Positions 8,252 through 38,600 of a stretch of 64,000 bases of DNA are shown here, piece by piece (the first letter of the stretch is position 1; every line of letters begins with the position of its first letter). The notes under the pieces are model-generated. The model searched no databases and was not told where the DNA came from. It saw only the letters and a program-made list of their open reading frames with translations. Source of the stretch: Lactobacillus sp. MRS-253-APC-2B (GTDB lineage: Bacteria; Bacillota; Bacilli; Lactobacillales; Lactobacillaceae). The position numbers were made by a program, and so were the translations under genes. Where the stretch lies: contig NZ_JABAFO010000002.1 in the NCBI RefSeq assembly GCF_012843675.1, positions 124,001-188,000 on the forward strand, given 5' to 3'.

Positions 8252-9394
8252 ATGGCAAACAGCAAAAAGAAAGACATGGTAATTTCCAACAAAGCCGACT
8301 TTGATCAAACTGAATACGACAAAGCTGTCGGCAAGCTGATCAGAAGCTACAAGAAGGCCAAGGAAATTCAGTACGATGACTTGACTGACCAGATCGCGAC
8401 TCCGTTTGGCTTAAATGCCCAGGGGATGGACAATCTGCTGCAAAACGTTGAAGATGCCGGAATCAGCGTCGTTGACGAAAAGGGTGATCCGGATCCACGT
8501 GCGCTCAAGGCAACGGAAAAACTGTCCAATAAAGCCTTAAAGGACACGTCAGCGCCAACCAACGTCAAGATCAATGATCCGGTGCGGATGTACTTAAAAG
8601 AAATTGGTCGGGTCAACCTGTTGACGGCTGATGAAGAAATTGCCCTGGCTCAGCGCATCGAAAAAGGCGACGAGCAGGCTAAACAGGAACTGGCCGAAGC
8701 CAACCTGCGTCTGGTAGTTTCCATTGCCAAGCGCTACGTAGGGCGTGGCATGCAGTTCTTGGATCTGATTCAAGAAGGGAACATGGGGCTGATGAAGGCC
8801 GTTGAAAAGTTCGACTATCGGAAAGGATTCAAGTTCTCGACCTACGCTACCTGGTGGATTCGTCAGGCCATTACGCGGGCCATTGCCGACCAGGCGCGGA
8901 CGATTCGGATTCCGGTACACATGGTTGAAACCATCAACAAGCTGATCCGGATTCAGCGTCAACTGCTGCAGGATCTTGGCCGGGAACCATTACCAGAAGA
9001 AATCGGTGCCGAAATGGACATGCCAACCAAGAAGGTACGTGAAATTCTCAAGATTGCGCAAGAACCGGTCTCTTTGGAAACGCCAATCGGTGAAGAGGAC
9101 GACTCGCACCTGGGTGACTTTATCGAAGACCAGGATGCTACCAGTCCGGCTGACCATGCTGCTTATGAAATGATGAAAAAACAGCTGGAAAACGTACTGG
9201 ATACGCTGACTGACCGTGAAGAAAATGTCTTACGGCTGCGTTTTGGTCTTGATGATGGCCGGACGCGCACGCTGGAAGAAGTCGGTAAGGTCTTTGGCGT
9301 TACGCGGGAACGGATTCGTCAAATCGAGGCCAAAGCTTTGCGTAAGCTGCGCCACCCATCACGTTCCAAGCAATTAAAGGACTTCTTGGAATAA
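8252..9394 (+). CDS. rpoD: Primary sigma factor RpoD (SigA)
   Basis: 380 residues, typical of the short SigA proteins of Firmicutes. Region 1.2 and 2 include [20 protein letters not shown], and the -10 recognition helix contains [19 protein letters not shown]. Region 4 carries the [21 protein letters not shown] for -35 contact. Start ATG at 8252 follows GGAGGAG in the dnaG tail. It is the vegetative sigma factor and presumably reads all the promoters noted here. Confidence 0.98.
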
Positions 9395-9441
9395 TCCGAG
9401 TTATAAAGGATCTTTATCAGGTCGAATTGATGAAGATCGAT

Positions 9442-9474
9442 TCCCTGCTTCAAAATTGAAGTGGGGATTTTTTT
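9442..9474 (+). terminator. Terminator after rpoD
   Basis: TCCC-tg-CTTC stem pairs with GAAG-tg-GGGA around AAAATT, followed by seven T. Confidence 0.82.
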
Positions 9475-9580
9475 GCAAATTGGCATGAATTGATTAGACG
9501 ATGACGCGTAAAGATGTTCAGAAACAGGATGATTTTATCTAAAATGAAATCATCAAATCTAACTATAAAAGAAAAAATTC

Positions 9581-10009
9581 ATGTCTAATCAAACTACAAT
9601 TCTTTTAGGCGCTACGGGTGAAGTTGGCGGTCATATTCTGCGAGAACTACTGAACAGTCCCGCTTATCAAACAATTACAGAATTGATCAAGCAAAAGTAC
9701 CACGTGAAACCGGATTTTCCTTGGCATTCTAAACAGAATCAAGATAACGGCGTTTTTCGTCATCTTGATTCAGGCAAGTGGTTTGGATTGATCATGAATA
9801 TTAAGCGCAGTCTATTGACCAAGGATAATGATGAACAATTTGTTGATGTGATCAACTTAAAGAGCAATTCGTTGCCAATTGATGCCAAAAGCGTTTTTCC
9901 AGCGTACCATATGAATCATCGCTACTGGATCTCAGTGGTGTTAGATGATCGGTTGAGTGATGATACCATAATGAAAATGATCGGTGAAAGCTTCGTGCTG
10001 ACAGGCTAA
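9581..10009 (+). CDS. Chimeric protein: Rossmann-type N-terminal stub joined to an MmcQ/YjbR domain
   Basis: 142 residues. Residues 1-28 (TTILLGATGEVGGHIL, ELLNSPAY) look like the dinucleotide-binding start of an NAD(P)-dependent epimerase/dehydratase. Residues from about 32 on (ELIKQKYHVKPDFPW, KWFGLIMNI, PAYHMNHRYWISVVLDD) match the MmcQ/YjbR family, a small CyaY-fold protein of uncertain function. The Rossmann part stops just after its first strand-helix, so it cannot be an active oxidoreductase. No good ribosome binding site precedes ATG 9581, and a GATGATTT/AAATCATC hairpin lies 27 bp upstream. An in-frame deletion fusing two neighbouring genes is the simplest reading; the gene may be poorly expressed. 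Confidence 0.65.
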   Translation: MSNQTTILLGATGEVGGHILRELLNSPAYQTITELIKQKYHVKPDFPWHSKQNQDNGVFRHLDSGKWFGLIMNIKRSLLTKDNDEQFVDVINLKSNSLPIDAKSVFPAYHMNHRYWISVVLDDRLSDDTIMKMIGESFVLTG

Positions 10010-10040
10010 GCAGCCAATCAATAACATCACACCCATTTCC

Positions 10041-10079
10041 AATATAAAACCCGCCGTCCGAAAGCTTGGATGGCGGGTT
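10041..10079 (-). terminator. Terminator of the codBA operon
   Basis: AACCCGCC-GTCC pairs with GGAT-GGCGGGTT; on the minus strand the stem is followed by TTTTATATT. It sits between two convergent genes and may also stop plus-strand transcripts. Confidence 0.75.
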
Positions 10080-10097
10080 ATTTAGTGTTTGTAAGTC

Positions 10098-11348
10098 TTA
10101 TTTCAAACTGTCTGGCAGGTTAAGCGTCGTCTCGGCAGGCGTCGTCTTAGCCAGTACCTTGCCATGACGAATATTGTAGAGGACTTCGACATGCTTGTTT
10201 AAGGCGTTGTAGAAGTCTTCAGCGTTTAACAGGATACAGTTGGCATCAAGGCCTTCTTTGATACCATATTGATCAGCAATGTGCAGAGTCTTGGCAGCGT
10301 TGTAGGTCACAAACTTAAATGAGTCCTGCAGCTGGCTGTAGCCCATCAAGTGAGCAGCATAAACACCCATTGAGACCGAATCGAGCATGTTGCCATTGCC
10401 AAGCGGATTCCATGGATCTTGAATGTCATCTTCACCAAATGAGACGTTGATGTTGGCTGCATCCAGTTCCTTGATCCGTGTCAGTCCACGGCGCTTTGGA
10501 TAGGTGTCAAAACGGCCGCCCAGGTGCATGTTGACCAATGGATTGGAGACAAAGTTGATGTTTGACATCTTTAATAAGCGGAACAGCTTGTAGGTGTAAG
10601 CATCGTTATATGATCCCATGGCCGTGGTGTGGCTGGCGGTGACCATATCGGTAAGACCGGTTTTGTAGGCCATCGTTGCTAATACTTCCAGATTGCGGGA
10701 GGCAGGATCGTCAATCTCATCACAGTGAACGTCAACCAGCTTGTTGTATTTTTCGGCTAGCTTGACTAGGAACTTGACTGATTTCCAGCCATATTCGGTC
10801 GTAAATTCAAAGTGCGGAATGCCACCAACGACATCGGCACCTTCTTTAACGGCCTGCTTCATCAGCTTTTTACCGTGTGGGTAAGAGAGGATGCCTTCTT
10901 GAGGGAAAGCGACCAGCTGCAGATCAACAACGTCTTGCATCTCATGCTTTAATTCCAAAAGTGCCTGCAAAGCAATCAGGTGAGGATCAGTAACGTCAAC
11001 GTGGCTGCGGACGTGTTGAATCCCATGACTTACCATGTTGAGCAGCGTCTTTTTGGCCCGTTCTTTGACGTCTTGAATCGTCAGGTCCTTTTTACGCTCC
11101 GACCAGATACGAATCCCGTCAAACAAGGTTCCCGTTTCGTTCCATTCAGGCTGACCGGCTGTCAGCGTGGCATCCAAGTGAACATGCGAGTCGATAAATG
11201 GCGGCAATAATACCTTGCCTTGGCCATCGATGACTTCTTCGCCAGGGTTAGCAATTAGACCGACCTTGATTTCTTTAAACTTGCCGTCTTCAATCCGGAC
11301 GTCAACAGCATTTTTTTGATTGTCTACATGAACGTTTTTAATCAGCAT
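10098..11348 (-). CDS. codA: Cytosine deaminase (amidohydrolase family)
   Basis: 416 residues. Metal-dependent amidohydrolase: the HVHLD motif (H55, H57) follows the beta-barrel segment LPPFIDS, a zinc-ligand His is in VDVHCDEIDDP and the catalytic Asp in SFGEDDIQDPWNP, the last being typical of CodA. It would convert cytosine to uracil and ammonia in pyrimidine salvage. It lies three bases downstream of the codB permease gene, which supports the substrate assignment; isocytosine or related purine/pyrimidine activities cannot be excluded. Confidence 0.88.
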   Translation of the reverse strand: MLIKNVHVDNQKNAVDVRIEDGKFKEIKVGLIANPGEEVIDGQGKVLLPPFIDSHVHLDATLTAGQPEWNETGTLFDGIRIWSERKKDLTIQDVKERAKKTLLNMVSHGIQHVRSHVDVTDPHLIALQALLELKHEMQDVVDLQLVAFPQEGILSYPHGKKLMKQAVKEGADVVGGIPHFEFTTEYGWKSVKFLVKLAEKYNKLVDVHCDEIDDPASRNLEVLATMAYKTGLTDMVTASHTTAMGSYNDAYTYKLFRLLKMSNINFVSNPLVNMHLGGRFDTYPKRRGLTRIKELDAANINVSFGEDDIQDPWNPLGNGNMLDSVSMGVYAAHLMGYSQLQDSFKFVTYNAAKTLHIADQYGIKEGLDANCILLNAEDFYNALNKHVEVLYNIRHGKVLAKTTPAETTLNLPDSLK

Positions 11349-27644: not shown

Positions 27645-28631
27645 ATGGAAAATAAAATTCTAAAGATAATGTTGGTGCCGTTGCTGGCCTTGGGAGTCGG
27701 TCTATCGTTACCGCAGCCTTCAATGACAAGCTCGGTTCAGTCGACTGTCGCTTTGGCCGCCAAAAAGCAGGCAAAGCATCAGTCGCAGCGGGTCAAAAAG
27801 CAGGCAGCTGCGTCTTCCAGTCAATCTGATGAGCAGCTGGCTCAGCTCGATTATCAAGGTACTCAGACAATCAGCGTTAATAACGGCCAGCCGACGTTTA
27901 GCAATGAGGACTTAGATACCAGTCATGGTGCCTGGCAGCAGTATGGCAATTTAGATCGTTTGAACCGGGCCACGCAGGCTAATGCACTGCTTAATCGTTC
28001 TTTGATGCCAAAGGCCAAGCGCGAGCCGCTGACTGTTGATCCAACCGGTTGGCACAACAAAAAAATCAAGGGCGGCTATTTATATAATCGATCGCATCTG
28101 ATTGGCTACCAGCTGACGGGTCAAAACAACAACTGGAAAAATCTGATTACGGGAACGCGCTCGCTGAATGATCCCGAGATGGTACGCTATGAAGACGAGG
28201 TAGCCGACTATCTGCGGGCTAATCCAAATGATTATGTGCGTTATCAGGTTACGCCGGTTTTTCGAGGCGATGAGCTGTTGGCGCGCGGCGTGCACATGCA
28301 GGCACAATCGGTTAACAGCCAGGCGGTCAGCTTTAACGTTTATATCTTTAACGTTCAAGATGGCGTCACGCTCAACTATGCTGACGGTACCAGTACGGTT
28401 GATAGTAATGCTCAGGCAGCCAGCTCTGCGCCAGCGGTGGTTTCAAAGGTCAGCGATACGACTGCAGAGCAGGGCAGCAATGATCAGGCAACCGTCTACG
28501 TTACGCCAAACGGTACCAAGTATCATTTGAATCGCAACTGTCGGGCATTGTCTCGCTCCAAAACGGTTGAGACGATGACACAGGGACAAGCAATTGCTGA
28601 CGGCTATACGCTGTGCGGTTTTGAACGATAA
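27645..28631 (+). CDS. Secreted DNA/RNA non-specific endonuclease (EndA/NucA type)
   Basis: 328 residues from ATG 27645 after GGGGGAG. An N-terminal signal peptide is clear (MENKILKIMLVPLLALGVGL, Ala-rich cleavage region near residue 38). A Lys/Gln/Ser-rich linker precedes the beta-beta-alpha-metal nuclease domain with NRSHLIGYQLTGQNNNWKNL (catalytic His) and ITGTRSLNDPEM. The C-terminal 45 residues (TKYHLNRNCRALS, GYTLCGFER) form a small two-cysteine module seen on other lactobacillar surface nucleases. Likely role is extracellular DNA degradation or uptake. Confidence 0.88.
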   Translation: MENKILKIMLVPLLALGVGLSLPQPSMTSSVQSTVALAAKKQAKHQSQRVKKQAAASSSQSDEQLAQLDYQGTQTISVNNGQPTFSNEDLDTSHGAWQQYGNLDRLNRATQANALLNRSLMPKAKREPLTVDPTGWHNKKIKGGYLYNRSHLIGYQLTGQNNNWKNLITGTRSLNDPEMVRYEDEVADYLRANPNDYVRYQVTPVFRGDELLARGVHMQAQSVNSQAVSFNVYIFNVQDGVTLNYADGTSTVDSNAQAASSAPAVVSKVSDTTAEQGSNDQATVYVTPNGTKYHLNRNCRALSRSKTVETMTQGQAIADGYTLCGFER

Positions 28632-28888: not shown

Positions 28889-29219
28889 TTTAGTTCACCC
28901 CTTAGTTATATACAAGAATATTTTATCATAAAAAGATTGAATTGAGTATCGTGAATCAAAAGCTTTTCGGCTCAGCTGTCGCAGTAAACATCGTGGGCAA
29001 TCCGTCTGAGTTGGTGATGTCTGATTCTCAGCGATCAGCCCCGACCCATTGGATGATTGAACGGCTCATGATTTGATTGACAAAACTTTCTAAAGATTAA
29101 CGTCCTAAATGTGAAAATGATGTTATGAATCTAATTCTCATTACACGAATGCCTTTATATCAATGCTTTCAACGGTTACAGACCGGTTAAAAAGATGCGA
29201 GAGACATTGAAGGGGAAAA
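28889..29219. other. Intergenic region holding the presumed left junction of the element
   Basis: No ORF or tRNA seen. It should contain the DUF2929 promoter (AT-rich TATGATAAAAT on the minus strand near 28918-28930) and the left attachment site. AAGGGGAAA at 29210-29218, beside the integrase stop codon, recurs at 37620-37628 and is the best, though short, candidate for an attachment core. Confidence 0.4.
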
Positions 29220-30359
29220 TTATACGTCAAGACTATTAATCAGACCGCTGTATCGTTCAGCGGTCTTTTTTGTTACATGCAGATAGATCTGGCGCGTAAT
29301 GGCGGAATCTTTATGACCCAACCGTTTTGAGATCAGCTCAATTGGGACGCCTAGCTCAGCTAACTTGGAAGCGTGGGTGTGGCGAAAAATATGAGTCGAC
29401 AGCGGTTTGTCTAATTCCAAAATTTCTTGAACGATTTTAAGCCGATTATCTATTGAAAGGGGGTGAATAAAAACACCGGTTTTAGTTTGAATACTAAATA
29501 AAAGGTCATCAGGCTGCTTGCCCAAACTATAAAGGCGATAAATTCTGACTGCTTCATCTGGTAGAAGAATGGTACGGTTGCTGCTTTGAGTTTTGGGCGT
29601 GCTGCTAATTGTAAACTCGCTTTTTTGCCTTTTGGAATATTCAAGAGTGCAGTCAATTTTGACAAACCACTTGCCATCCTCTTGAAAAATTTTCTTGGCT
29701 TGTAAGGCGAGAACCTCACCGATCCGCATACCCGTAAGATATTGCCACAACAAGACATCAGCGTACATTGGATTGACGGATCTAACAGCTTCTAGGACCT
29801 GTTTAACCTCTTCATCATCAAGGTACTTGTCTTCAATGCTTTTCGCTGAGTTATTGCGTTTCCAATTGATCTCAAGCTGACCAATTGGGGCTGCGATATA
29901 GTCATGCCGGTACGCATAGCGCATTATCTGATTGATTTTGGACTTGATCGCGCCAACGTAAGCATTGTTATATCCGCGCTGATAGATCATGGCTTCTAGC
30001 GTGTTGGTCAGATATTTATTGGTGATTTTAGAAACTAAGATATCAGAATTAAAGTTTTTTAAAACACAAGCTTTGAAAACTTTCCAAGATGCAAAAGTTG
30101 AAGGCTTAACCGTACGTTTGTAGTATTGATCAAATTCTTCAATCAGCTCACCGAATGTAACACCTTCTTTGATCTGACCGTCTGCAAGATGACGAAGCTT
30201 CTCTTCAATTCGCTTGTTTAGGGTCTGCTGCGCCAGCTTGCGCGTAGTATTGGTTTCTTTGTCCATTGTAATTGATACGCGCGTGTACTTGAGCGTCAGA
30301 GGGTTTTTGAATTGTTCGACAAACTTTACTTTGCCGGTTTTTGTGGGTTCAGTCCACAT
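29220..30359 (-). CDS. int: Tyrosine integrase of the mobile element
   Basis: 379 residues, phage/ICE-type tyrosine recombinase. An N-terminal arm-binding domain (about 1-70) precedes a SAM-like core-binding domain and the catalytic domain, where YLTGMRIGEVLAL supplies Arg I, HIFRHTHASKLAELG the His-x-x-Arg, and LGHKDSAITRQIYLHV the His and nucleophilic Tyr. The set is complete, so the enzyme is probably active. It runs outward to the left end of the element. The ribosome binding site AAGGATC lies in a predicted leader stem, and a plus-strand terminator is embedded in its last codons. Confidence 0.95.
   Translation of the reverse strand: MWTEPTKTGKVKFVEQFKNPLTLKYTRVSITMDKETNTTRKLAQQTLNKRIEEKLRHLADGQIKEGVTFGELIEEFDQYYKRTVKPSTFASWKVFKACVLKNFNSDILVSKITNKYLTNTLEAMIYQRGYNNAYVGAIKSKINQIMRYAYRHDYIAAPIGQLEINWKRNNSAKSIEDKYLDDEEVKQVLEAVRSVNPMYADVLLWQYLTGMRIGEVLALQAKKIFQEDGKWFVKIDCTLEYSKRQKSEFTISSTPKTQSSNRTILLPDEAVRIYRLYSLGKQPDDLLFSIQTKTGVFIHPLSIDNRLKIVQEILELDKPLSTHIFRHTHASKLAELGVPIELISKRLGHKDSAITRQIYLHVTKKTAERYSGLINSLDV
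29242..29272 (+). terminator. Plus-strand terminator embedded in the 3' coding end of int
   Basis: AGACCGCTG pairs perfectly with CAGCGGTCT around TATCGTT, followed by TTTTTT on the plus strand. On the minus strand the same bases encode the last residues of the integrase. It would block host transcripts running antisense into int. Confidence 0.75.
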
Positions 30360-30421
30360 GATTGATCCTTCTTTCTATGAATTTACGGCTGCCGGGCACG
30401 CGCATAGCTAAAGGATCAATC
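30360..30421 (-). promoter_or_regulatory. Leader stem-loop that sequesters the int ribosome binding site
   Basis: On the minus strand GATTGATCCTT (30411-30421) is perfectly complementary to AAGGATCAATC (30360-30370), which holds the int Shine-Dalgarno immediately before the ATG. An inner CTATG/CATAG pair sits inside the loop. If transcription starts upstream, int translation should be held off by an 11-bp stem. Confidence 0.65.
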
Positions 30422-30462
30422 AAAATTCTATTGATTTAATTCAATGATACTACTTTTGCCGC

Positions 30463-30490
30463 AACCTCGTTCCAAGGTTGGAACGAGGTT
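30463..30490. promoter_or_regulatory. 28-bp perfect palindrome between int and xis-rep
   Basis: Half-site AACCTCGTTCCAA is mirrored exactly around a central GG. It lies in the divergent control region and has no T run on either side, so an operator or recombination directionality site is more likely than a terminator. Confidence 0.7.
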
Positions 30491-30568
30491 AAACAAAAAG
30501 AACGTGGCGAAACTTGTCGCCCATCAATTTTTATTTAAATTAAATAAAAAAGAAAGGAGATGTGAGAT

Positions 30569-30754
30569 ATGGAGCAAGAATATTTTAGCCTGACTGATGC
30601 TGCTAAGTACCTTGGATATGGCTCAAAGCACGTCGTATATGACTTGATCAAAGCGGGAATGCCAGTCATCAAGGTTGGTAAAACAATGAGGGTTAGCAAA
30701 ACAGCTATTGATAGCTTTATGAAAGCTCATGAAGTTGTTACTGACGAAAAGTAA
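30569..30754 (+). CDS. xis: Excisionase-like small HTH protein
   Basis: 61 residues. The pattern FSLTDAAKYLGYG, VYDLIKAGMPVIKVGKTMRVSKTAIDSFM is the MerR-like/HTH_17 winged helix of excisionases. It would bend the attachment DNA and steer Int towards excision, or act as a transcriptional regulator. ATG follows AGAAAGGAGATG. First gene of the rightward element operon. Confidence 0.82.
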   Translation: MEQEYFSLTDAAKYLGYGSKHVVYDLIKAGMPVIKVGKTMRVSKTAIDSFMKAHEVVTDEK

Positions 30755-30758
30755 GCAA

Positions 30759-30816
30759 GAAGGCAATAAAAAAGCCGAGTTACGCAAGCACTCGACCAGA
30801 CACATTTATTGCCTTC
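30759..30816 (+). repeat. Long inverted repeat between xis and rep
   Basis: GAAGGCAATAAA (30759-30770) and TTTATTGCCTTC (30805-30816) are perfectly complementary, with an inner CGAGT/ACTCG pair. The structure stands between the two genes and ends 32 bp before the rep start; it could set differential expression. Confidence 0.7.
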
Positions 30817-30847
30817 ATTTTACAAGAAAATGGAGGAAAAAACAACA

Positions 30848-32302
30848 ATGGAGAAAAAGAAGAATAATAAAGTAATTGTTATTAACAATTGGCTGTACAC
30901 CAAAGACGAGGACGGCAAGATCAAGGTTAAATTACTTAATTTAGCTAATTATTTGATGAACAAATATCATTTTACTTTTAATCTCTTCGACCCCCACGGC
31001 TTCTGGTGGGAGCCAAATAAAAAGCAATGGCATACACACGCTGATCGTCATTTGAAAAAAATTATTCCGGAAGTACTTGAAAGTGAAATTGGTATTATGT
31101 CGGGTAGCGTGGTTTCAGCGATCGTGTCGAATATCACCACGAGCAAGGGTGTTGATGAAAGCTTAACAGATAAATTTGCTCTCGAAAGCAGAAATAGACA
31201 CCTGGTCGTTTTTAAAAACGGAACATACGATTTGGATAAGGATAAAATATTGCCCAACAAGTATGACAATTATATTCTGCAGAATCACGAATATGACCTG
31301 GGTGAAATTTCTGAAGAAGAGACAGTATGGGATCGGTGGCTTAAAGAATCAATTGTTGATCCCAATGCTAAGCGCGATGATCAAGGACTTTTGAGAAGCG
31401 AAGGGGATCAAAAAGCTGTAGAAGTATTTAAAGCATATATCGGTTGGGCCATGGCCGGAAGCTACAAGGAATTCCAACATTTTTTGCTGATTTATGGAAA
31501 TGGCGGTGAAGGTAAGTCAACCATGCTTAATATGGTTGAGAATTTATTCGGGCAAGGCAATGTAGCGAATGTTGACTTAGGCGCTTTAGGAGACAGCGAT
31601 AAGGCACGTTTTAACTTAGCGAAGCTCAACCGAAAAGAGTTGAACTACTCAGATGATATAGGTAACGGTTTTATAAAAGAAACTAATATTTTAAAGCGGC
31701 TGACCGGCGGTAATCGTATGACAGCCGAATATAAAGGTAAGGATCCGTTCGAATTTACAAATGAAGCCAAGCTGATCTTTACATGCAACAATCTGCCTTC
31801 ATTCAGTGATACTTCACACGGAATGGAGCGACGGCCAATTATCATTGAATGGCGTCGTATCAAGGGCTTCAAAGAAAAATACTCAATGGATCAATTCGAG
31901 CGCGATAAGCCAGCATTCGTGCGTGAATGCTTGGTTGCTTACAAATCTGCGTTGCAAAACGCCAAGAATATGGTAGAGCCAAGACTGCCAATGACTGAAT
32001 TCATGGAGCAGCGGGCCAAGGAATGGATCCAGGCAAACGACGTAATTGGCAACTGGCTTGCTGAAAACTGTGAACTTGGCGAAGATCAAAAAGTATATCG
32101 TGAGCAAACGGCGATGCTATACAACAACTATGTTCGTTACTGTAAAGATAGCGGCGTGCAGCACCTTGGTATAACAAAATTCAACGTTGAAATGAAAAAC
32201 CGAGGTATTGAACCGAATAAGAACGTTCGTATCAACGGCAAGCAGCACAAATGTTATGTTGGCGTTCGTCGAATTGAAAAATATGGATCCGATCTATATT
32301 GA
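30848..32302 (+). CDS. P4/D5-type replication helicase (Rep)
   Basis: 484 residues from ATG 30848, eleven bases after GGAGG; an upstream in-frame extension lies in the inverted repeat. The D5-N/RNG region (VVFKNGTYDLDKDK) near residue 122 is followed by a superfamily 3 helicase domain with Walker A GNGGEGKST around 217, a Walker B-like YSDDI, and LIFTCNNLPSF. A C-terminal winged-helix (from about 395) probably reads the origin repeats that lie directly downstream. It is the phage/plasmid primase-helicase family used by phage-inducible islands and IMEs; a primase catalytic domain is not evident. Confidence 0.88.
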   Translation: MEKKKNNKVIVINNWLYTKDEDGKIKVKLLNLANYLMNKYHFTFNLFDPHGFWWEPNKKQWHTHADRHLKKIIPEVLESEIGIMSGSVVSAIVSNITTSKGVDESLTDKFALESRNRHLVVFKNGTYDLDKDKILPNKYDNYILQNHEYDLGEISEEETVWDRWLKESIVDPNAKRDDQGLLRSEGDQKAVEVFKAYIGWAMAGSYKEFQHFLLIYGNGGEGKSTMLNMVENLFGQGNVANVDLGALGDSDKARFNLAKLNRKELNYSDDIGNGFIKETNILKRLTGGNRMTAEYKGKDPFEFTNEAKLIFTCNNLPSFSDTSHGMERRPIIIEWRRIKGFKEKYSMDQFERDKPAFVRECLVAYKSALQNAKNMVEPRLPMTEFMEQRAKEWIQANDVIGNWLAENCELGEDQKVYREQTAMLYNNYVRYCKDSGVQHLGITKFNVEMKNRGIEPNKNVRINGKQHKCYVGVRRIEKYGSDLY

Positions 32303-32800
32303 ATTGAGTGTTACCAATTGTTACCAATTACTTTTGCTGTTACTAATCATTTTCACTGTTACCAATATCATTTGAGTTGGTAACAATGGCTATAAACGTT
32401 GATATGACGGCATTCATGAACGTTTTTGCTATTAACACAATCAGCACTTTTCACGCCACGGCACAACAACTGAACGAATCGGTAACTTGGTAACAATAGC
32501 TATAAACGTTGATATGACGGCATTTATCTGTTACCAATAATCGGTAACTGTTACCAATTGTTTTTTAGCGCTAGGACTAAAAGGTAACAGCTACCAATTA
32601 AAAGTAACAAATTTAGTCCTACAAACGTTGATATGACGGCATTTCGTTTCGCTGTTACCAAGTTACCAATTTCTAGAGTTTCTCCGCGCTACAAAAGCAT
32701 AATTCATTTTGATCATCAACAAACGTTGATATGACGGCATTCTTGGTTTGCTGAATTTTCTTTCAGTGCTTCGCCTGAAATCAATTGGTAACACCAAAAA
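32303..32800. repeat. Presumptive replication origin with two interleaved repeat families
   Basis: Family A: AAACGTTGATATGACGGCAT occurs four times without change, starting at 32394, 32504, 32623 and 32721 (spacing 110, 119 and 98 bp). Family B: TGTTACCAA or its complement occurs at 32309, 32319, 32357, 32377 (reverse), 32487 (reverse), 32529, 32549, 32653 and 32785 (reverse), plus near copies. No ORF is present. The position directly after rep is that of the origin in SaPI-type elements, where Rep binds short iterons. Confidence 0.8.
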
Positions 32801-32884
32801 TTAAAACCACCAAGATGATGATTATGGCTATACGTCAAGACGGGTTCCAGACGTCAACCAGGCGATTAAATTTAAAAAAATCCG

Positions 32885-33105
32885 TAAAAAGCGGTGAGGC
32901 GGTGAGGTTTTCGCCAAAACCCATGGGAGAGTAAGCGCTAGGTACATTACCGGCGCGGTGAGGTTTGGTGAGGTAGTGTATTGTTTTGGTGAGGGTTTTC
33001 GCCAAAACCCTTGGGAGAGTAAGTGTTAGGCACATTACTGGAGCGGTGAGGTTGAACATAAAACCTCACCGAATCTTATTGAACATTACCGAACCTCACC
33101 GCATT
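32885..33105. repeat. GGTGAGG array with an 87-bp duplicated unit
   Basis: GGTGAGG is found six times forward (32893, 32901, 32957, 32967, 32988, 33045) and twice inverted (33064, 33094). Units starting at 32901 and 32988 are imperfect 87-bp direct repeats, each including the palindrome GGTTTTCGCCAAAACC, GGGAGAGTAAG and ACATTAC. Non-coding; a second protein-binding array distinct from the upstream one. Confidence 0.75.
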
Positions 33106-33187
33106 ACCATATTTATCTAGAATTTTTTCAAATATTTACCTACCAAGAGATATTTGGTTACCTTCTGCTATAAAAATAGCGTCTGAT

Positions 33188-33258
33188 CCGGCGTGATCGC
33201 CGGAATACCCCTCAATGAGACCGGTGTTGCGTGTGCAAACCTAACCTCATTGAGGGGT
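33188..33258. other. Candidate oriT or mob-operon control region
   Basis: CCGGCG-TGAT-CGCCGG (33188-33203) is followed by a perfect 13-bp inverted repeat, ACCCCTCAATGAG (33207-33219) and CTCATTGAGGGGT (33246-33258), with GTGTTGCGTGTGC in the loop. It lies 21 bp ahead of the mob operon, a usual oriT location. The nick site was not recognised. Confidence 0.45.
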
Positions 33259-33279
33259 GAAAGAGAGAGGAGCAAAAAA

Positions 33280-33849
33280 ATGTATCGTGAAATCATAATC
33301 AAAGATGAAAAAGGCAATATTAAGAGGCATACGTATGAACATCTTCTCACGGAAAAGCAATGGCTGAAGAAGCAGCGGCAGTTGCGAAAGAACGCGACGG
33401 GAGAGTTAATAAGTTGGTCTAACCATTATGGCGGCGGTCAGGCCTTATATTTTGAAGAAGCCGAAACAAAAGTAATGAGTAAGACAGAGCGCATGCGACG
33501 CGAGAAAGCTAAGAAAAAGGCAAAACTGGAGGAAGAGAAAAAACGACAGCTGGAGCTTGAGTATGAGAATGCAAGGACCTCATATCAATGGCTGCATGAT
33601 TGTCACCGTAAGATTATTAATTCTGATAACGGCTTTCATGTTGAAAAATACCGTTATGACAATGACAACAGCGCAGATGATCCATTCTATTTGGCCGAAA
33701 TGCCATACTTCTATTATTTGGAGCGCGATACAAAACCCGTAGATGAAGCTGAGTATGAACGCCTGAAGCAGCTTTATATCAAAAAATATGGGGGCTGGGA
33801 GCATATTGATTTAGACAATACCAAATATAATGGGAAGCCATGGTATTAA
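33280..33849 (+). CDS. Unknown mobile-element protein with charged coiled coil
   Basis: 189 residues from ATG 33280, preceded by AGAGGAG; the frame is open upstream into the inverted repeat but without a start site. Not recognised. The middle (about residues 66-100, MSKTERMRREKAKKKAK, KLEEEKKRQLELEYE) is a highly charged predicted coiled coil; the C-terminal part is rich in Tyr, Asp and Glu. It is first in a run with mobC and mobA (15-bp gap to mobC), so a role in relaxosome function or its control is plausible. Confidence 0.7.
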   Translation: MYREIIIKDEKGNIKRHTYEHLLTEKQWLKKQRQLRKNATGELISWSNHYGGGQALYFEEAETKVMSKTERMRREKAKKKAKLEEEKKRQLELEYENARTSYQWLHDCHRKIINSDNGFHVEKYRYDNDNSADDPFYLAEMPYFYYLERDTKPVDEAEYERLKQLYIKKYGGWEHIDLDNTKYNGKPWY

Positions 33850-33863
33850 GAGGAGGCAGGAAG

Positions 33864-34196
33864 ATGCCAAGAACTGATAATCATCAGGTTAATATTAGGG
33901 TTAACGAGGCCGAGTATGCTAAAATCCAGGCTTCGGCACGCATTATGGGCTTGTCTGTGCCTAAGTATTGTAAGCACTTAGTAATGCGCTCAAAATTGAA
34001 AGAACCGAAGCTGGCGGACGACGAATACCATAAGATAATCGTTGATCTATCCCGTATAGGCAACAATATCAACCAGATTGCCAGGCGTCTGAATCAGTCC
34101 AAAAGCGAAGTCGCAGAGGAGGAATGGATTGCTGTTAAAGACCAGTTGGAAGCACTAGATAAGGAGGTGGCTCATGTTTGGCTACGATTAAGATGA
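33864..34196 (+). CDS. mobC: Relaxosome accessory protein MobC
   Basis: 110 residues from ATG 33864, seven bases after AGGAGG; the longer frame lacks a site. N-terminal ribbon-helix-helix-like segment (VNIRVNEAEYAKIQASARIMGLSVPKYC) binds oriT DNA in this family, and the C-terminal signature DLSRIGNNINQIARRLNQ is diagnostic of MobC. It assists the relaxase in melting and nicking oriT. The 3' end overlaps mobA by 19 bp. Confidence 0.93.
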   Translation: MPRTDNHQVNIRVNEAEYAKIQASARIMGLSVPKYCKHLVMRSKLKEPKLADDEYHKIIVDLSRIGNNINQIARRLNQSKSEVAEEEWIAVKDQLEALDKEVAHVWLRLR

Positions 34197-35755
34197 ACCG
34201 AGCTAAGAGTGCAGCAGCAGCCATCAGCTATGCTTTAGGGTCTAATCGAATGAAACAGGAGACTAAAGACTGGTTGATTAAGCATGGCTGCCCGCCTGGA
34301 GCATTGAAAAACAATGATCGGGCGGTTGTCAGAAGCGGTATTAACATCAGTCCAACCTATGCGAATGCTGAAATGAAGGCAGTGAGACAGCATGCTAATG
34401 GCGATACGGTAAAAAATCAAGCGGTCAGAATCATACAATCATTCTCGGCTGATGACCTGGACATCACAAGCCCTGAGAATTGGCAAATATGCAATGATAT
34501 TGGTTATGAATTTGCCAGGCGGGCTTTCGGCGGGCTTGATGATGAAAACCAAGACGGCTATTATCCTCCTTATCAAATTGCTGTATATACACATGTTGAC
34601 GGAAAAGGCCATAAGCTGCACAACCATATCATTGTAAATAAAACCAATCTTCATGATAGCAAGCAGTGGACGGTTGACAACCTGGATCAAGAGTGGCGTA
34701 GCTTTCGTGAGATCAATGATGCTGTCTGTCGTGAATATGGCCTTAAGATTACTCAGGAACGTTCCAAAAAAGTTAAAAAGACGATTAGCGAGCGCGAATT
34801 GGAGCTAAAGGGCCAATACGTGTGGAAGAATGACCTTAGGACTAGAATTGATGAAGCGCTGGCTGAGATCAGGAAGAAGAACATCAATCTAGAAGATGCC
34901 CTGAAAGCAAGAGGCGTTGACGTGAGACGACGCGGGCAGAATGGAATAAGCTATGCCTTCATTGACGAAGAGGGTAAAAAGCGGATCAGCCGTGGGAAGC
35001 GCCTGGGCACGAATTACGAGAGGGAGAGTGTAGATGGATATGAACAAGAAATCAAACAGCAACGAGAACAACAAGAGCGAGCAAGAGAAGCTGCTAGATC
35101 AGTTCGTCTTGACGTTAGACGATCAACAATTGATGCAGTTCAAAACCATCAGCAGCAATTGGAACAGAGCGTTGGAGATGCAGGAGAAAGAGTTGAGCGA
35201 GTTGGAGCTAGAAAACAAGCGGTTATTGAGCTTGTTAGAAGCATTCAACAAGCAGTTGACCGATCAATTGCCTTAATGAAGCATCTGAGAGCCGATTTTG
35301 AACGTCGAAAAGCTGAAATGAAACGCTTTCAAAATAAAATAAGACAATTTGACGTTAAAAGCTATAAGGATCTGGAACAACAAATGTGTTTGGTTGCTAA
35401 GGTGGCTGAGCAATCGAAAAAGACTGCTGCGCCTAAAGCAATCGTGGCTGTAACGCTGAGGGACGAGTTGCCGGAGAACAGTAGCAATCCGCTAATAGCT
35501 GCTACGGCCGATATGACGCAGTACCTGGTCATGATTGATCAAGGCGTATGGTCAGGAAGGCAGTTTGAATTTTCAGGTAGAGAGAAAGAGGCCCTGGAGA
35601 AAGCAACGCCGGAGCAGTTGAAGAAAATCAACGGTATTGCCAAACGACAGGCTAAAAGGCTATCTGGCATTGTTGATGAGGCTGTTGAGAGACAGAAAAA
35701 GAATGCTGAACGGCTTAGAGCTGTTAGAAATCGAGGAAAGAGGTACAGAAGATGA
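34178..35755 (+). CDS. mobA: Relaxase/mobilization nuclease (MobP-like)
   Basis: 525 residues with a TTG start at 34178, ten bases after AAGGAGG inside mobC. The N-terminal relaxase domain has the histidine triad THVDGKGHKLHNHIIVN (about residues 138-154) and a catalytic Tyr probably among YALGS near residue 19 or the NISPTYAN region. It would nick oriT and pilot the strand into a recipient using a conjugation system from another element. The C-terminal 250 residues are Lys/Arg/Gln-rich and coiled-coil; a second ORF is nested there in another frame. The stop overlaps the next ORF (ATGA). Confidence 0.9.
   Translation: MATIKMNRAKSAAAAISYALGSNRMKQETKDWLIKHGCPPGALKNNDRAVVRSGINISPTYANAEMKAVRQHANGDTVKNQAVRIIQSFSADDLDITSPENWQICNDIGYEFARRAFGGLDDENQDGYYPPYQIAVYTHVDGKGHKLHNHIIVNKTNLHDSKQWTVDNLDQEWRSFREINDAVCREYGLKITQERSKKVKKTISERELELKGQYVWKNDLRTRIDEALAEIRKKNINLEDALKARGVDVRRRGQNGISYAFIDEEGKKRISRGKRLGTNYERESVDGYEQEIKQQREQQERAREAARSVRLDVRRSTIDAVQNHQQQLEQSVGDAGERVERVGARKQAVIELVRSIQQAVDRSIALMKHLRADFERRKAEMKRFQNKIRQFDVKSYKDLEQQMCLVAKVAEQSKKTAAPKAIVAVTLRDELPENSSNPLIAATADMTQYLVMIDQGVWSGRQFEFSGREKEALEKATPEQLKKINGIAKRQAKRLSGIVDEAVERQKKNAERLRAVRNRGKRYRR
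35034..35276 (+). CDS. Nested ORF inside mobA, MobB/MbeD-like coiled-coil protein
   Basis: 80 residues in a frame different from mobA and wholly contained in it. A good site, AGGGAGAG, precedes ATG 35034 by five to six bases (a second ATG lies two codons later). The protein is acidic-helical with heptad-like Leu spacing (LDQFVLTLDDQQLMQFK, KELSELELENKRLLSLLEAF). ColE1-type plasmids nest mbeB and mbeD in mbeA the same way, and small coiled-coil proteins of this kind act in mobilization. Family assignment is an inference from architecture. Confidence 0.6.
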   Translation: MDMNKKSNSNENNKSEQEKLLDQFVLTLDDQQLMQFKTISSNWNRALEMQEKELSELELENKRLLSLLEAFNKQLTDQLP

Positions 35756-36051
35756 CATCCAGATATGATATTGCGGCGATCAAAAAGCAACTAGCAGCCG
35801 CGGAAAAGCATGACAAGGAAATTTATGGCGAAAAAGTCCGCAAGATGCTGTTGGAAAAGACAAATTTAGACAGCTTAAAGGACGTATTGCATGACTATGA
35901 TATTATTGTTCTACCAAAAAAGAAAAATGACGTACCAGAAAAAACAGAGAAGCCCCATTTGAAGTCTAAAAATATTCCATCTGTTGATGAATGGAATAAT
36001 AGGAAAGATATTTCAGAAACAGATTTTGGAACGGAGGAAAAACTTTTCTAA
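35752..36051 (+). CDS. Unknown small element protein
   Basis: 99 residues, starting in an ATGA overlap with the mobA stop, so it is translationally coupled to the mob operon. Not recognised. N-terminal half is helical and charged (IAAIKKQLAAAEKHDKEIYG), the C-terminal half is Lys/Glu/Asn-rich and probably disordered. Its position suggests an accessory of mobilization or a remnant. Confidence 0.6.
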   Translation: MTSRYDIAAIKKQLAAAEKHDKEIYGEKVRKMLLEKTNLDSLKDVLHDYDIIVLPKKKNDVPEKTEKPHLKSKNIPSVDEWNNRKDISETDFGTEEKLF

Positions 36052-36121
36052 CTTTTTAAAAGTACACAATTGTAGTCATTTGTTAAAAATAGGACTTTTA
36101 ATAATTATTTTAGTCATTATG

Positions 36122-36130
36122 TGGTATACT
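36122..36130 (+). promoter_or_regulatory. Extended -10 promoter of the peptide/GtrA-like pair
   Basis: TGGTATACT gives an extended -10 (TATACT at 36125-36130); no good -35 is seen. TAGTCATT occurs as a direct repeat at 36073-36080 and 36111-36118, the second copy just upstream of the -10, and may be an activator or repressor site. The pair thus seems transcribed apart from the mob genes. Confidence 0.6.
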
Positions 36131-36155
36131 TTCAGAATTAAGGAGGTGAGTAATC

Positions 36156-36332
36156 TTGAAACTGAATAAAATGAGTAAGGCTTGCATTGTTGCCGTTATG
36201 GTTGCTGTTTTTGCAGTTGTCCCATTAGTGCAACTTAATGCTGGACAAAACGCTAACTATGTTAGTGCTTCTTCTAAAAAAGTAATGAAGCATTACTGGG
36301 GCGCAGGTTGGCAATGGTTTCATGGTATTTAG
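36156..36332 (+). CDS. Small secreted Trp-rich cationic peptide (candidate bacteriocin or signal)
   Basis: 58 residues with a TTG start nine bases after a perfect AGGAGG (36141-36146). Residues 1-38 form a classical Sec signal peptide: Lys-containing n-region, hydrophobic core CIVAVMVAVFAVVPLV, and a VSA cleavage motif. The predicted mature peptide is about 20 residues, ending KHYWGAGWQWFHGI, with three Lys, two His, three Trp and no Cys. There is no YGNG motif, double-Gly leader or lanthionine pattern, so it fits no bacteriocin class known to me. The stop is three bases from the next start, a membrane protein that could give immunity. Confidence 0.72.
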   Translation: MKLNKMSKACIVAVMVAVFAVVPLVQLNAGQNANYVSASSKKVMKHYWGAGWQWFHGI

Positions 36333-36335
36333 ATC

Positions 36336-36821
36336 TTGTCAGTAAATAAACCTGTACTTAAGCTTATCAAGAATGAAAAGATAAAGTATTTATTCTGGGG
36401 AATTGTAACAACAGTATTTTATTTTGTCGTCAGATTATTATTAGATACATTTGTAACACCTGTTCTTTCAGCAACAATCACTGAAATTTTGACTATTTTC
36501 TTTGCTTTTTATGTAAATAGGAGATTTGTTTTTACTAAACAAAAATCAAAATCTCTAGTTTACCAGCTAATTACATTTTTTAGCGGACGAATAGTTGTTA
36601 TGTTTGCTGATATGTTAATTACCTTTTTAGCAATAGAAAAGTACTATGCTTTTTTTATCGCTGTGTTTAAATTAAATACGTTGGCTTATGCTTTGGATTC
36701 TATTATAGGTATTAATTATTTGACAGGTTATAGATTGAATAATTTATTTTGGATATGCATAATCCAGATCTTTGCAATAGTGTTCAACTTTATAGTATCA
36801 AAATATTTATCATTTAAATGA
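36336..36821 (+). CDS. GtrA-like four-helix membrane protein
   Basis: 161 residues, TTG start three bases after the peptide stop; no independent ribosome binding site, so translation is coupled to the peptide. Four hydrophobic segments (about 18-38, 42-62, 82-108 and 132-156) and the loop FYVNRRFVFTKQ are characteristic of the GtrA/DPMS-associated family, whose members are linked to polyprenyl-phosphate sugar transfer. Pairing with a secreted peptide on a mobile element suggests immunity or a change of surface. A glycolipid-related function remains possible. Base composition is strongly A+T-rich. Confidence 0.78.
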   Translation: MSVNKPVLKLIKNEKIKYLFWGIVTTVFYFVVRLLLDTFVTPVLSATITEILTIFFAFYVNRRFVFTKQKSKSLVYQLITFFSGRIVVMFADMLITFLAIEKYYAFFIAVFKLNTLAYALDSIIGINYLTGYRLNNLFWICIIQIFAIVFNFIVSKYLSFK

Positions 36822-36866
36822 TGACAGAACATAAGAGGCTGAGAAACAGTCTCAAAACAAAAAATG

Positions 36867-36911
36867 TTAGAAATTACGTTGCTGAAAACGTTGATTTCTA
36901 GCGTTTTTTTT
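36867..36911 (+). terminator. Terminator after the cargo genes
   Basis: TAGAAAT-x-ACGTT pairs with AACGT-x-ATTTCTA around GCTGAA, followed by GCG and eight T. T-rich sequence flanks the other side too, so it may work in both directions. Confidence 0.75.
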
Positions 36912-37010
36912 ATTCAACTGAAATTATGACGAAACTTTGACGCTAGAATCTCTTTATTCGGGATCATAACACTTCTAATTATCTATTGATTTAAAAGAAT
37001 ACGACGCCTG

Positions 37011-37192
37011 AACGCTCATTACGCAATCGCGTTCCTGCTTAGCGTTCTAAGCCCTCAGCACTCGCTTTTCGCTCATGCTGCTGGCAAGAACGAAGCACCT
37101 TAACGCTCATTATTCAATCGCGTTCTTGTGCTAGTGTTCTTAATCTCCAAGCTTCGCTAACCGCTCGCTTGTCAATAAAGAACACTATATTG
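37011..37192. repeat. Tandem imperfect 91-bp repeat in the element's right end
   Basis: Copies begin at 37011 and 37102 with AACGCTCATTA, then CAATCGCGTTC and TAGnGTTCT. In each copy AACGCT can pair with AGCGTT or AGTGTT, so the fold is retained although bases changed. No ORF covers it. Confidence 0.65.
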
Positions 37193-37193
37193 A

Positions 37194-37315
37194 AGGCAAG
37201 CACCCTCTTTTGTAGACTATATTACATATAGCTACAAAGAATGCTTGCAAAGGGACTGCTTCGCTCCCCTTGACCCCTTAGACAAACTTTTTAACAAAAA
37301 GTTTGATCAAAAAGC
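37194..37315. repeat. Nested inverted repeats; second oriT candidate
   Basis: GCAAGCA...TGCTTGC encloses CTTTTGTAG...CTACAAAG and CTATAT...ATAG (about 37197-37252). Then AAGGGACTGCTTCGCTCCCCTTGACCCCTTAGACAAAC leads into CAAACTTTTT-AAC-AAAAAGTTTG, a perfect 10-bp inverted repeat near 37284-37306. Dense pairing plus a G/C-rich hinge resembles oriT or single-strand origins. Confidence 0.45.
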
Positions 37316-37355
37316 TCGGCCTAATTGACTTTTCAAGCCAATTACTAGCCTCGCT

Positions 37356-37415
37356 AACGACAACAATTTGCGCGAAGTGATTTCATCACTTCAGCAAAAA
37401 AAGTTGTCGTTTTTT
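37356..37415 (+). terminator. Two-tier terminator-like stem-loop
   Basis: AACGACAAC (37356-37364) pairs with GTTGTCGTT (37403-37411); the inside carries GAAGTGAT-TTC-ATCACTTC, also perfect. TTTTTT follows. No gene is close upstream, so it may end a non-coding transcript. Confidence 0.6.
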
Positions 37416-37417
37416 CG

Positions 37418-37479
37418 GCTGCAACCAAGATCAAATATGCTATACTGGTTGCAGCTGATCAACGAACAATTCGTTGATA
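37418..37479 (+). promoter_or_regulatory. Promoter flanked by a 10-bp inverted repeat
   Basis: TGCTATACT gives an extended -10 (37441-37446) lying between GCTGCAACCA (37418-37427) and TGGTTGCAGC (37446-37455). Downstream, ATCAACGAA-CAA-TTCGTTGAT forms another perfect hairpin at the 5' end of any transcript. No ORF follows; a short RNA or a regulator site is possible. Confidence 0.45.
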
Positions 37480-37496
37480 AATCTATCTATACGTAA

Positions 37497-37529
37497 CAAA
37501 AAAACCGTTACCTTAATTTCAGGTAACGG
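37497..37529 (-). terminator. Minus-strand terminator near the element's right end
   Basis: CCGTTACCT (37505-37513) pairs with AGGTAACGG (37521-37529); on the minus strand the stem is followed by seven T. It would stop leftward transcription entering the element from the hydrolase side. From here to the hydrolase gene (37530-37778) no ORF is seen. Confidence 0.75.
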
Positions 37530-37778: not shown

Positions 37779-38600
37779 ATGTCAGAAGCGATCGGTGAAT
37801 CTCAGCTGCTGATTAAGACCCCAGATCATCAGCAGTTGTTTGTAAAACAGAATCGGCCACTGGCACTACAAGCTGTTTTGGTAGTCGTGCATGGTCTAGG
37901 TGGACATCAAGGGCGCTATGACTATCTGACCAACTGGTTTGTTGCCCATCATGTTGCCGTTTACCGCTATGATCATCGCGGTCATGGTCAGACTCCTGGG
38001 GCACATGGCGTTTATGGCGACTTTAACCATTTTCCCGATGATCTTAAAACCGTTGTCGATTGGGCCAAAAAAAACACGCCGCATCTGCCAATCTTTGTCG
38101 TTGGTCACAGTCTGGGCGGCGGCACGGCGATGGCATTTGGTGCCAAATATCCAGCAACGGTCAATGGCATTATTTCCGTTGGGGCCTTAACGAGATATCA
38201 TAATCAGATCTTTGGACCAGTTCATCATTTTAAAACTGATGAGACAATCAGTGGCAGTTTTGGTGATCGAAGCAACAGCAGTGCCTGGATGCGAAAAGAC
38301 TATCAAGACGATCCCTTGAATCTAACCGTAATTAAAGGATCACTGCTGAATGCGGCTTTGGATCTGGTTGCGTTTAATAAATCGCATGCTGCTGATTTTG
38401 TGGATCCGGTTTTGGTTCTGCATGGTGCCGAAGATGGCGTGGTCAGTGTCGATGACTCAATGGACAGTTATCGTGAAATCGCTTCGGTAGATAAAGAACT
38501 GCATGTTTACCCATGTTTAAGACATCAGGTTTTAAACGAACCATCGCGCCGTCGAGAAGTATATCAAGAAATCTTGAACTGGATGAAAAAACATGGCTAA
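37779..38600 (+). CDS. Alpha/beta hydrolase (monoacylglycerol lipase-like, S33 family)
   Basis: 273 residues. Serine hydrolase fold: nucleophile elbow GHSLGGG (Ser near 112), oxyanion-region VVHGLGGHQGRY, DHRGHGQTPG, catalytic Asp in VLHGAEDGVV and His in CLRHQVLNEP. Closest in look to monoacylglycerol/lysophospholipid lipases; real substrate unknown. ATG follows GAGGGAGGAAG. It is the first chromosomal gene to the right of the mobile element. Confidence 0.88.
   Translation: MSEAIGESQLLIKTPDHQQLFVKQNRPLALQAVLVVVHGLGGHQGRYDYLTNWFVAHHVAVYRYDHRGHGQTPGAHGVYGDFNHFPDDLKTVVDWAKKNTPHLPIFVVGHSLGGGTAMAFGAKYPATVNGIISVGALTRYHNQIFGPVHHFKTDETISGSFGDRSNSSAWMRKDYQDDPLNLTVIKGSLLNAALDLVAFNKSHAADFVDPVLVLHGAEDGVVSVDDSMDSYREIASVDKELHVYPCLRHQVLNEPSRRREVYQEILNWMKKHG

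Follow-up and report, generated by a model that had tools for sequence, protein, structure and literature searches.

Leucocin B is a class IId bacteriocin of Leuconostoc carnosum, and its gene lebB is listed together with the leucocin B immunity gene lebI on plasmids of both strain 4010 and strain AMS1 (accessible sections of PMC10927644). LagC and LciM, which are immunity proteins of other class II bacteriocins, are described as four-helix proteins (accessible sections of PMC8538875). Relatives of GtrA are, for their part, thought to flip undecaprenyl-phosphate sugars. In the Listeria homologue GtcA, changes at R95 and N132 impair both LTA and WTA glycosylation, K121 matters for LTA glycosylation, and eight positions are reported to be conserved in >99% of homologues (accessible sections of PMC7389260).

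Here, we analysed 64 kb of the genome of Lactobacillus sp. MRS-253-APC-2B (the window), in which a short gene predicted to encode a secreted peptide is directly followed by a gene of the GtrA family. Both lie on an integrative mobilizable element that has a sister in the same genome. Candidate cleavage sites of the peptide were placed by the -3,-1 rule of signal peptidase. In window coordinates, the features are as follows:

29109 to 37525, no strand: integrative mobilizable element carrying the pair, about 8.4 kb, its ends being the limits of homology to the sister element
29220 to 30359, minus strand: tyrosine integrase (PF00589, E 2.5e-22; 75% DNA identity to the sister)
30809 to 32302, plus strand: D5-type primase/helicase (PF19263, E 4.9e-22, and PF08706; phrog_864 DNA primase, E 2.9e-81)
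33840 to 34196, plus strand: MobC/NikA-like mobilization protein (PF21983, E 3.8e-15; PF05713, E 3.1e-9)
34178 to 35755, plus strand: MobA-type relaxase (PF03432, E 4.1e-18)
35752 to 36051, plus strand: small gene of the mob operon with no assigned function; homology to the sister ends at 35927
36122 to 36130, plus strand: extended -10 promoter-like sequence TGGTATACT (TG-G-TATACT), seen in the sequence, with no recognisable -35 and unlisted by a consensus scan
36141 to 36146, plus strand: Shine-Dalgarno sequence AGGAGG of the peptide gene, seen in the sequence 9 nt before the start
36156 to 36332, plus strand: predicted gene of a 58-aa secreted peptide, TTG start, stop TAG at 36330-36332
36156 to 36269, plus strand: candidate signal sequence with the cut after VSA, from the sequence and the -3,-1 rule (a QLNA cut would end it at 36242)
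36270 to 36329, plus strand: candidate mature Trp-rich peptide of 20 residues for the VSA cut (2433.8 Da, pI 10.0)
36336 to 36821, plus strand: GtrA-family four-helix membrane protein, the proposed immunity protein (Pfam, tree, AlphaFold model)
36859 to 36909, plus strand: terminator, a 22-bp hairpin with a T run, from folding of the 3′ region
36996 to 37525, no strand: right end of the element, common to the sister (89% over the first 465 aligned columns)

The host genome measures 2.0 Mb and the contig with the element 217,503 bases. The original prediction had assigned the pair to a mobile element, and the integrase, primase, MobC and relaxase genes confirm it. Chromosomal, with integrase, relaxase and MobC and with no mating-pair genes seen by eye, it belongs to the integrative mobilizable elements. 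Named by eye, its flanking genes are a secreted-nuclease-like one, which ends at 28631, and a lysophospholipase-like one, which begins at 37779. The presumed ends share no repeat of at least 10 bases that could mark att sites. A profile scan of six larger element proteins found no glycosyltransferase, and no exporter gene was seen by eye in the list of open reading frames (ORFs) around the element. In most of the kilobases profiled to the left and right of the element, the GC content is 45-52%, and in the integrase and mob genes 42-44%; it is 29% in the segment 36052-36921, with 39% for the peptide gene and 26% for the GtrA gene.

The sister element, on another contig of the same genome (C23; L106 2592-9036), is an integrative mobilizable element without the peptide-GtrA pair. 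The two are 75% identical in DNA over 1,290 columns of the integrase region and 72% identical over 1,478 columns of the mobilization region. Homology stops at 35927, within the last gene of the mob operon, and resumes at 36996. The non-homologous gap holds the tail of the mob gene, the pair and the terminator, and the sister has a longer version of the mob gene in that place. The peptide-GtrA pair is thus cargo of the integrative mobilizable element. A copy that had lost the peptide and kept the GtrA gene, the case named beforehand as telling against a functional pair, was not seen; the single other copy lacks both genes. The relaxase itself was found only in its own genome among 50 genomes of the genus (1e-20) and in 13/396 genomes of the family sample (1e-30), where all matches but the two own ones are 34-42% identical. 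It matches 699 plasmid records, all below 60% identity, and no viral contig.

Two further observations concern the surroundings of these elements. On C23, in the stretch L106 9124-12759, a methyltransferase-like ORF (9124-10194) is followed, about 1.8 kb beyond the right end of the sister, by a 639-residue ORF that resembles a tetracycline ribosomal protection protein. Moreover, a repeat of about 80 bp that includes the terminator hairpin (window 36832-36909) is dispersed in the genus, with four places in the host genome. It has matches in 4/115 genus genomes, the host included, and also on two L. mucosae plasmids. The copies lie on contigs C51, C24 and C1 of the host genome and in genomes G197, G302 and G723 (L146-L152), and the sequence looks like a mobile terminator-like repeat. 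Together with the GC content, the sharing of this repeat with the L. mucosae plasmids leads us to place the host in or close to Limosilactobacillus.

The 58-codon ORF with a TTG start behind a perfect AGGAGG is present as predicted (36156-36332). By inspection of the sequence, its N-terminus has a basic start, a hydrophobic core (15-residue mean of 3.08) and VSA and LNA sites. A cut after VSA would leave the candidate mature peptide SSKKVMKHYWGAGWQWFHGI, whose three Trp, three Lys and two His and lack of Cys agree with the predicted composition; the sole Cys of the 58 residues lies within the signal part. The other plausible cut, QLNA|GQ, would give a product of 29 aa with a mass of about 3339 Da. 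We evaluated the likelihood of such a gene arising by chance with 20,000 dinucleotide shuffles of the 284 nt before the GtrA gene (36052-36335). ORFs with 50 or more codons occurred in 1,729 shuffles, with an AGGAGG in six, with a signal-like N-terminus in 169, and with both in two. As the stretch had been picked by a reader from 64 kb, 2/20,000 does not apply to the whole window and the chance of finding such an ORF somewhere in it is larger; we estimate it at a few per cent at most.

The pair had also been credited with its own promoter and terminator, of which the latter stands. The 3′ region of the pair folds at -31.1 kcal/mol (z -5.6), and none of 200 shuffles folds as well; a simple scanner that also omitted the promoter did not list this hairpin. 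On the other hand, an extended -10 without a -35, absent from the consensus scan, makes the promoter a weak claim; the scan itself found five promoter-like sites against 4.9 in shuffles.

A tblastn search of 72,556 plasmid records (E <=1) returned no relative of the peptide. Pattern searches returned 297 stretches in the genome contig collection, none of them confirmed, and 12 in viral contigs, none of which is a relative. In the family sample, 94/396 genomes gave a match at E <=1, the best one besides the own copy (E 8e-4) lying inside a 291-aa ORF. One weak match (L009) overlaps an ABC ATPase gene on the opposite strand, and the other weak matches were judged from the match table. In the class sample, the matches at E <=0.01 in 2/200 genomes are the own copy and a sequence with internal stops. 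NCBIfam, PHROGs and PADLOC contain no match, and a Pfam hit to the eukaryote-named family Jiraiya (E 0.053, below the family cut-off) was taken as chance. With no relative found, the ORF may be young or non-functional.

The peptide was said to fit no bacteriocin class, which is right as far as its sequence goes; a broad definition would place it with linear non-pediocin single peptides (class IId). It lacks the YGNGV motif of the pediocin-like class IIa and, having no Cys after the signal, also the disulfide of that class, and it carries a signal-type N-terminus in place of a double-glycine leader. It matches neither an NCBIfam model nor a Pfam bacteriocin family, collections that presumably include a model of the lactococcin 972 family. 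No BLASTP alignment with leucocin B and no PF04369 match were obtained. Without leucocin B homology and without a double-glycine leader, the pair is not filed in the leucocin B family, but it may work like leucocin B. If active, it would rank among the linear bacteriocins of the non-pediocin type, accompanied by an immunity protein in the membrane.

The downstream gene is arranged as the original prediction described it. Its TTG start at 36336 lies 3 nt after the stop of the peptide gene, no Shine-Dalgarno sequence is seen before it, and this spacing implies translational coupling of the two genes. The junction RNA has no notable structure (z -0.06). The 161-aa product matches Pfam PF04138 (GtrA_DPMS_TM, E 1.4e-9, 38.6 bits against a cut-off of 26.1). 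An AlphaFold model, built from a five-sequence alignment without the short L069, predicts the four helices that had been claimed (14-37, 42-65, 74-102 and 131-159; mean pLDDT 78) and an additional helical stretch at 104-124. The top three PDB matches of this model in Foldseek are dolichyl-phosphate mannose synthases (prob 0.92-1.00, E 0.06-1.6), the first two with prob 1.00 and E 0.06 and 0.11. By sequence, no PDB match was found at E <=1. The model matches nothing at E <=0.001 in a viral fold library, and the protein has no PADLOC or PHROGs match.

We mapped the conserved GtcA positions on this protein by motif spacing, with the accessible description in PMC7389260 as the only source for GtcA. 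By this mapping, it retains the equivalents of A65, N69, V73, F74, F91, R95 and N132 (7/8 positions), as do the GtrA proteins of L. carnosum and of genome G338. At the eighth position, K121, the window protein has Ile; eight of 12 canonical rows have Lys there and none of the 47 others, so that this Lys is missing across the whole non-canonical subfamily, with or without peptides. The R95-N132 spacing is 66 residues here vs 37-41 in the 12 canonical rows. Judging from the retained lipid-handling core, the window protein may still be a flippase. The host genome also holds a second, stronger GtrA match (E 1.4e-20).

GtrA relatives were found on three plasmid records at E <=1e-5 (two of L. carnosum and one of Streptococcus salivarius), in 40/396 genomes of the family sample at 1e-8, nearly full-length in 19 of them including the host, and in 93/395 genomes of the order sample at 1e-12. 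None occurs among 201 stretches of viral contigs, and none in phages. On the S. salivarius plasmid, the gene is flanked by those of an IS3 transposase and an Abi protein, and no peptide was seen beside it (L004 2520-4399). In Lactococcus hircilactis, a lone GtrA gene directly follows a tyrosine integrase gene (L067 2733-4444). Lone GtrA genes behind an integrase or transposase gene thus recur on mobile DNA.

The expectation that the two genes always co-occur fails for the membrane protein. A bacteriocin-like ORF, judged by eye, lies just upstream of GtrA in only one (G338) of the 18 other family genomes with a near-full-length relative. Likewise, when 59 GtrA loci were scanned upstream with a ribosome-site filter, such an ORF was recognised by eye at L002 and L040 only; at many other loci, the GtrA gene is alone or behind a glycosyltransferase-like gene. 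A stricter small-ORF scan of ten GtrA loci showed nothing bacteriocin-like, a result of low weight since it also missed the known peptide of L121 and the GtrA gene of L045. Of the 19 genomes with a GtrA relative, four match leucocin B at E <=0.1. The G338 match is strong (1.1e-15), and the other three are weak (0.008-0.08) and lie on contigs other than that of the GtrA gene.

In a careful maximum-likelihood tree of 60 proteins, the window GtrA falls in a 15-row clade (97/99) with the L. carnosum protein, eight chromosomal rows of the Leuconostoc group (g16) and five rows from three other genera. Three of the 15 rows (window, L. carnosum and G338) have a peptide partner. The trees left out L062, which is partial, and L065 and L066, which are the same loci as L039 and L038. 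The window protein has a long branch (2.09), and a first quick tree left its placement unresolved. In clade tests, its position among the Leuconostoc-like rows was not rejected, and better trees were found with that placement. Such a branch might reflect a fast-changing immunity protein, while long branches are easily misplaced.

On the plasmids of both L. carnosum 4010 and AMS1, the leucocin B gene, whose product matches the Pfam family Lactococcin (PF04369, E 6.6e-8), is followed after 58 nt by a GtrA relative (37% identity, tblastn). Genome G338 has the same arrangement, with a leucocin B-like peptide (PF04369, E 4.3e-6) encoded 69 nt before the GtrA gene. Its mature sequence is that of Leuc. 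kimchii IMSNU 11154 as listed in the accessible part of PMC5471241. Upstream of this peptide gene lies a gene for an HTH protein (L040 934-1209), and the first ~20 residues of this HTH protein resemble a double-glycine bacteriocin leader (PF10439, E 0.065, below the cut-off).

These loci raise the question of which gene is lebI. On pLC4010-2, the two leucocin A/C-type genes each have their own adjacent annotated immunity gene. A 93-aa protein is encoded 360 nt upstream of lebB, and in AMS1 an insertion sequence separates the two. This protein gave no match in G338, which has the GtrA gene (one genome, with no positive control), nor did a local tblastn against the 14 kb surrounding its locus. 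As the leucocin A-type immunity genes are accounted for and the 93-aa protein is unmatched in G338, elimination leaves the GtrA gene, and its identification as lebI fits best. Position next to a bacteriocin gene is no proof of an immunity role, since mesH, the named immunity gene of the mesentericin B105 cluster, is listed ahead of mesB, the bacteriocin gene (accessible sections of PMC11433673). MesG was also considered as a GtrA protein and excluded by its size: a 60-bp loss left 77% of mesG, which makes it about 260 bp (same source).

The Leuconostoc-group chromosomes also differ among themselves. L039 and L040 differ by a segment carrying an HTH gene and a bacteriocin gene, which is placed after an SDR-like gene and before the GtrA gene. 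In L039, from a genome related to G338, the GtrA gene is retained at the same site without the peptide. It is either an orphan immunity gene or the state that preceded the arrival of the peptide, and the difference between the two chromosomes offers a natural test bed for orphan immunity.

Compared with these loci, the window pair shares with the leucocin B locus a gene for a short, cationic, Trp-containing peptide followed on the same strand by a 161-aa GtrA gene, a location on mobile DNA and membership of the same GtrA clade. It differs by its Sec-like signal, its direct coupling, the lack of an exporter gene in view nearby and the lack of any alignment between the peptides. For leucocin B, the leader is of the double-glycine type, the product has 31 residues, pLC4010-2 encodes an ABC exporter, and a hairpin lies within the 58-nt gap to the GtrA gene. 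The G338 locus also has the peptide gene before the GtrA gene on the same strand, but it is on a chromosomal contig of 2.0 Mb, its peptide has a double-glycine leader, an HTH gene precedes it, and the related genome keeps GtrA without a peptide. LagC and LciM, which guard against the class II peptides of lactococcin G and lactococcin MN, resemble the window protein in their four transmembrane segments (accessible sections of PMC8538875). This likeness is one of description, and both serve two-peptide bacteriocins. Finally, the profile match, the four predicted helices and 7/8 mapped positions tie the protein to the GtrA/GtcA flippases (PF04138; accessible sections of PMC7389260), from which the missing Lys at position 121, the longer R95-N132 stretch and the lack of an adjoining glycosyltransferase gene set it apart.

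Several other explanations deserve consideration. The GtrA protein could be a working C55-P-sugar flippase that serves glycosyltransferases of the host and alters the sugars of the wall or of teichoic acids, for instance to keep out phages or competing elements; the small ORF would then be a helper or an accident. The seven retained positions, among them the two on which LTA and WTA glycosylation both depend, the existence of established phage gtr cassettes with GtrA (accessible sections of PMC7389260) and the dolichyl-phosphate mannose synthases at the head of the Foldseek matches all speak for it. However, gtr cassettes comprise three proteins whereas the scan of the element proteins brought up no GtrB-like gene, Ile occupies the K121 position in the window protein and none of the 47 non-canonical relatives has Lys there, and a well-formed, coupled ORF with a signal peptide would be left without explanation. 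We therefore see this role as unlikely, though the most serious of the alternatives. We are more doubtful still that the peptide serves the element as a signal, either pheromone-like or transfer-inhibiting, with the membrane protein as its sensor or shut-off partner. The mobile setting and the association of a short signal-sequence peptide with a membrane partner would suit this role, and enterococcal plasmids, which carry pheromone-inhibitor pairs, provide a precedent. Yet no regulator gene was recognised by eye beside the pair, we know of no GtrA protein that acts as a sensor, and the Trp-rich cationic end is more like that of a membrane-active peptide.

The remaining two explanations deny the peptide a role outside the cell. 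The small ORF might mainly load ribosomes onto the GtrA gene or regulate it, which would account for a GtrA gene that lacks a ribosome site and begins 3 nt behind the peptide stop. A leader would need neither a signal sequence nor 58 codons, the structure of the junction RNA is unremarkable, and we find this explanation just as improbable as the preceding one. Very improbable, in our view, is that the 58-codon frame is no gene at all. It is indeed present as a single copy with no relatives found and with weak promoter evidence, but its combination of features arose in only 2/20,000 shuffles, and without it the GtrA gene would have no ribosome site.

On balance, we consider it rather probable that the pair consists of a Sec-exported mini-bacteriocin and a LebI-like immunity protein of the GtrA fold; export, cleavage, killing and protection are what we infer. 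A strong start site, the 3-nt coupling, the terminator, the presence and absence of the pair between sister elements and the place of the GtrA protein in the clade of the leucocin B partner argue for such a cassette. We count against it the 17/18 other near-full-length GtrA relatives without a bacteriocin-like ORF upstream and the lack of an alignment with leucocin B. Thus, of the peptide and membrane immunity protein originally proposed, the organisation as one unit, the status as cargo and a positional precedent, namely GtrA genes behind leucocin B and leucocin B-like genes, hold, while their activities are expected on this reading only. The signal sequence would send the peptide through the Sec pathway and signal peptidase would free a cationic, Trp-rich peptide of 20 or 29 residues, which would damage or block the membrane of Gram-positive relatives. 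The GtrA-fold protein, translated from that same mRNA, would sit in the membrane of the producer and prevent this, whether it binds the peptide or shields the membrane component that the peptide targets. Loss of the element would leave a cell unprotected. With an export route as universal as Sec, the pair could function in a recipient that lacks the ABC exporter found next to leucocin B, which suits a small mobile element.

In the papers searched, judged by title and start of abstract, we found no report linking GtrA to bacteriocin immunity. Nor did we find, judging mostly from listings, the combination of a Sec signal, a Trp-rich product of about 20 residues, translational coupling and a GtrA partner. 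A broader proposal, which we put forward as speculative and rather unlikely, is that GtrA-fold proteins form a recurrent class of bacteriocin immunity proteins derived from C55-P-sugar flippases, that the undecaprenyl-phosphate carrier, or a protein handling it, is where the Trp-rich peptides countered by them act, and that the pair represents the smallest version, free of an exporter and disseminated by mobilizable elements. The reported receptor of lactococcin G is undecaprenyl-pyrophosphate phosphatase (accessible sections of PMC8538875). If the cassette works as we propose, a family of flippases of lipid-linked sugars would be tied to bacteriocin immunity, and a target in the undecaprenyl-phosphate pathway would become directly testable. 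Two coupled genes and the universal Sec pathway would then make a complete, portable bacteriocin unit, and the locus would show how a mobilizable element can reward the cells that retain it.
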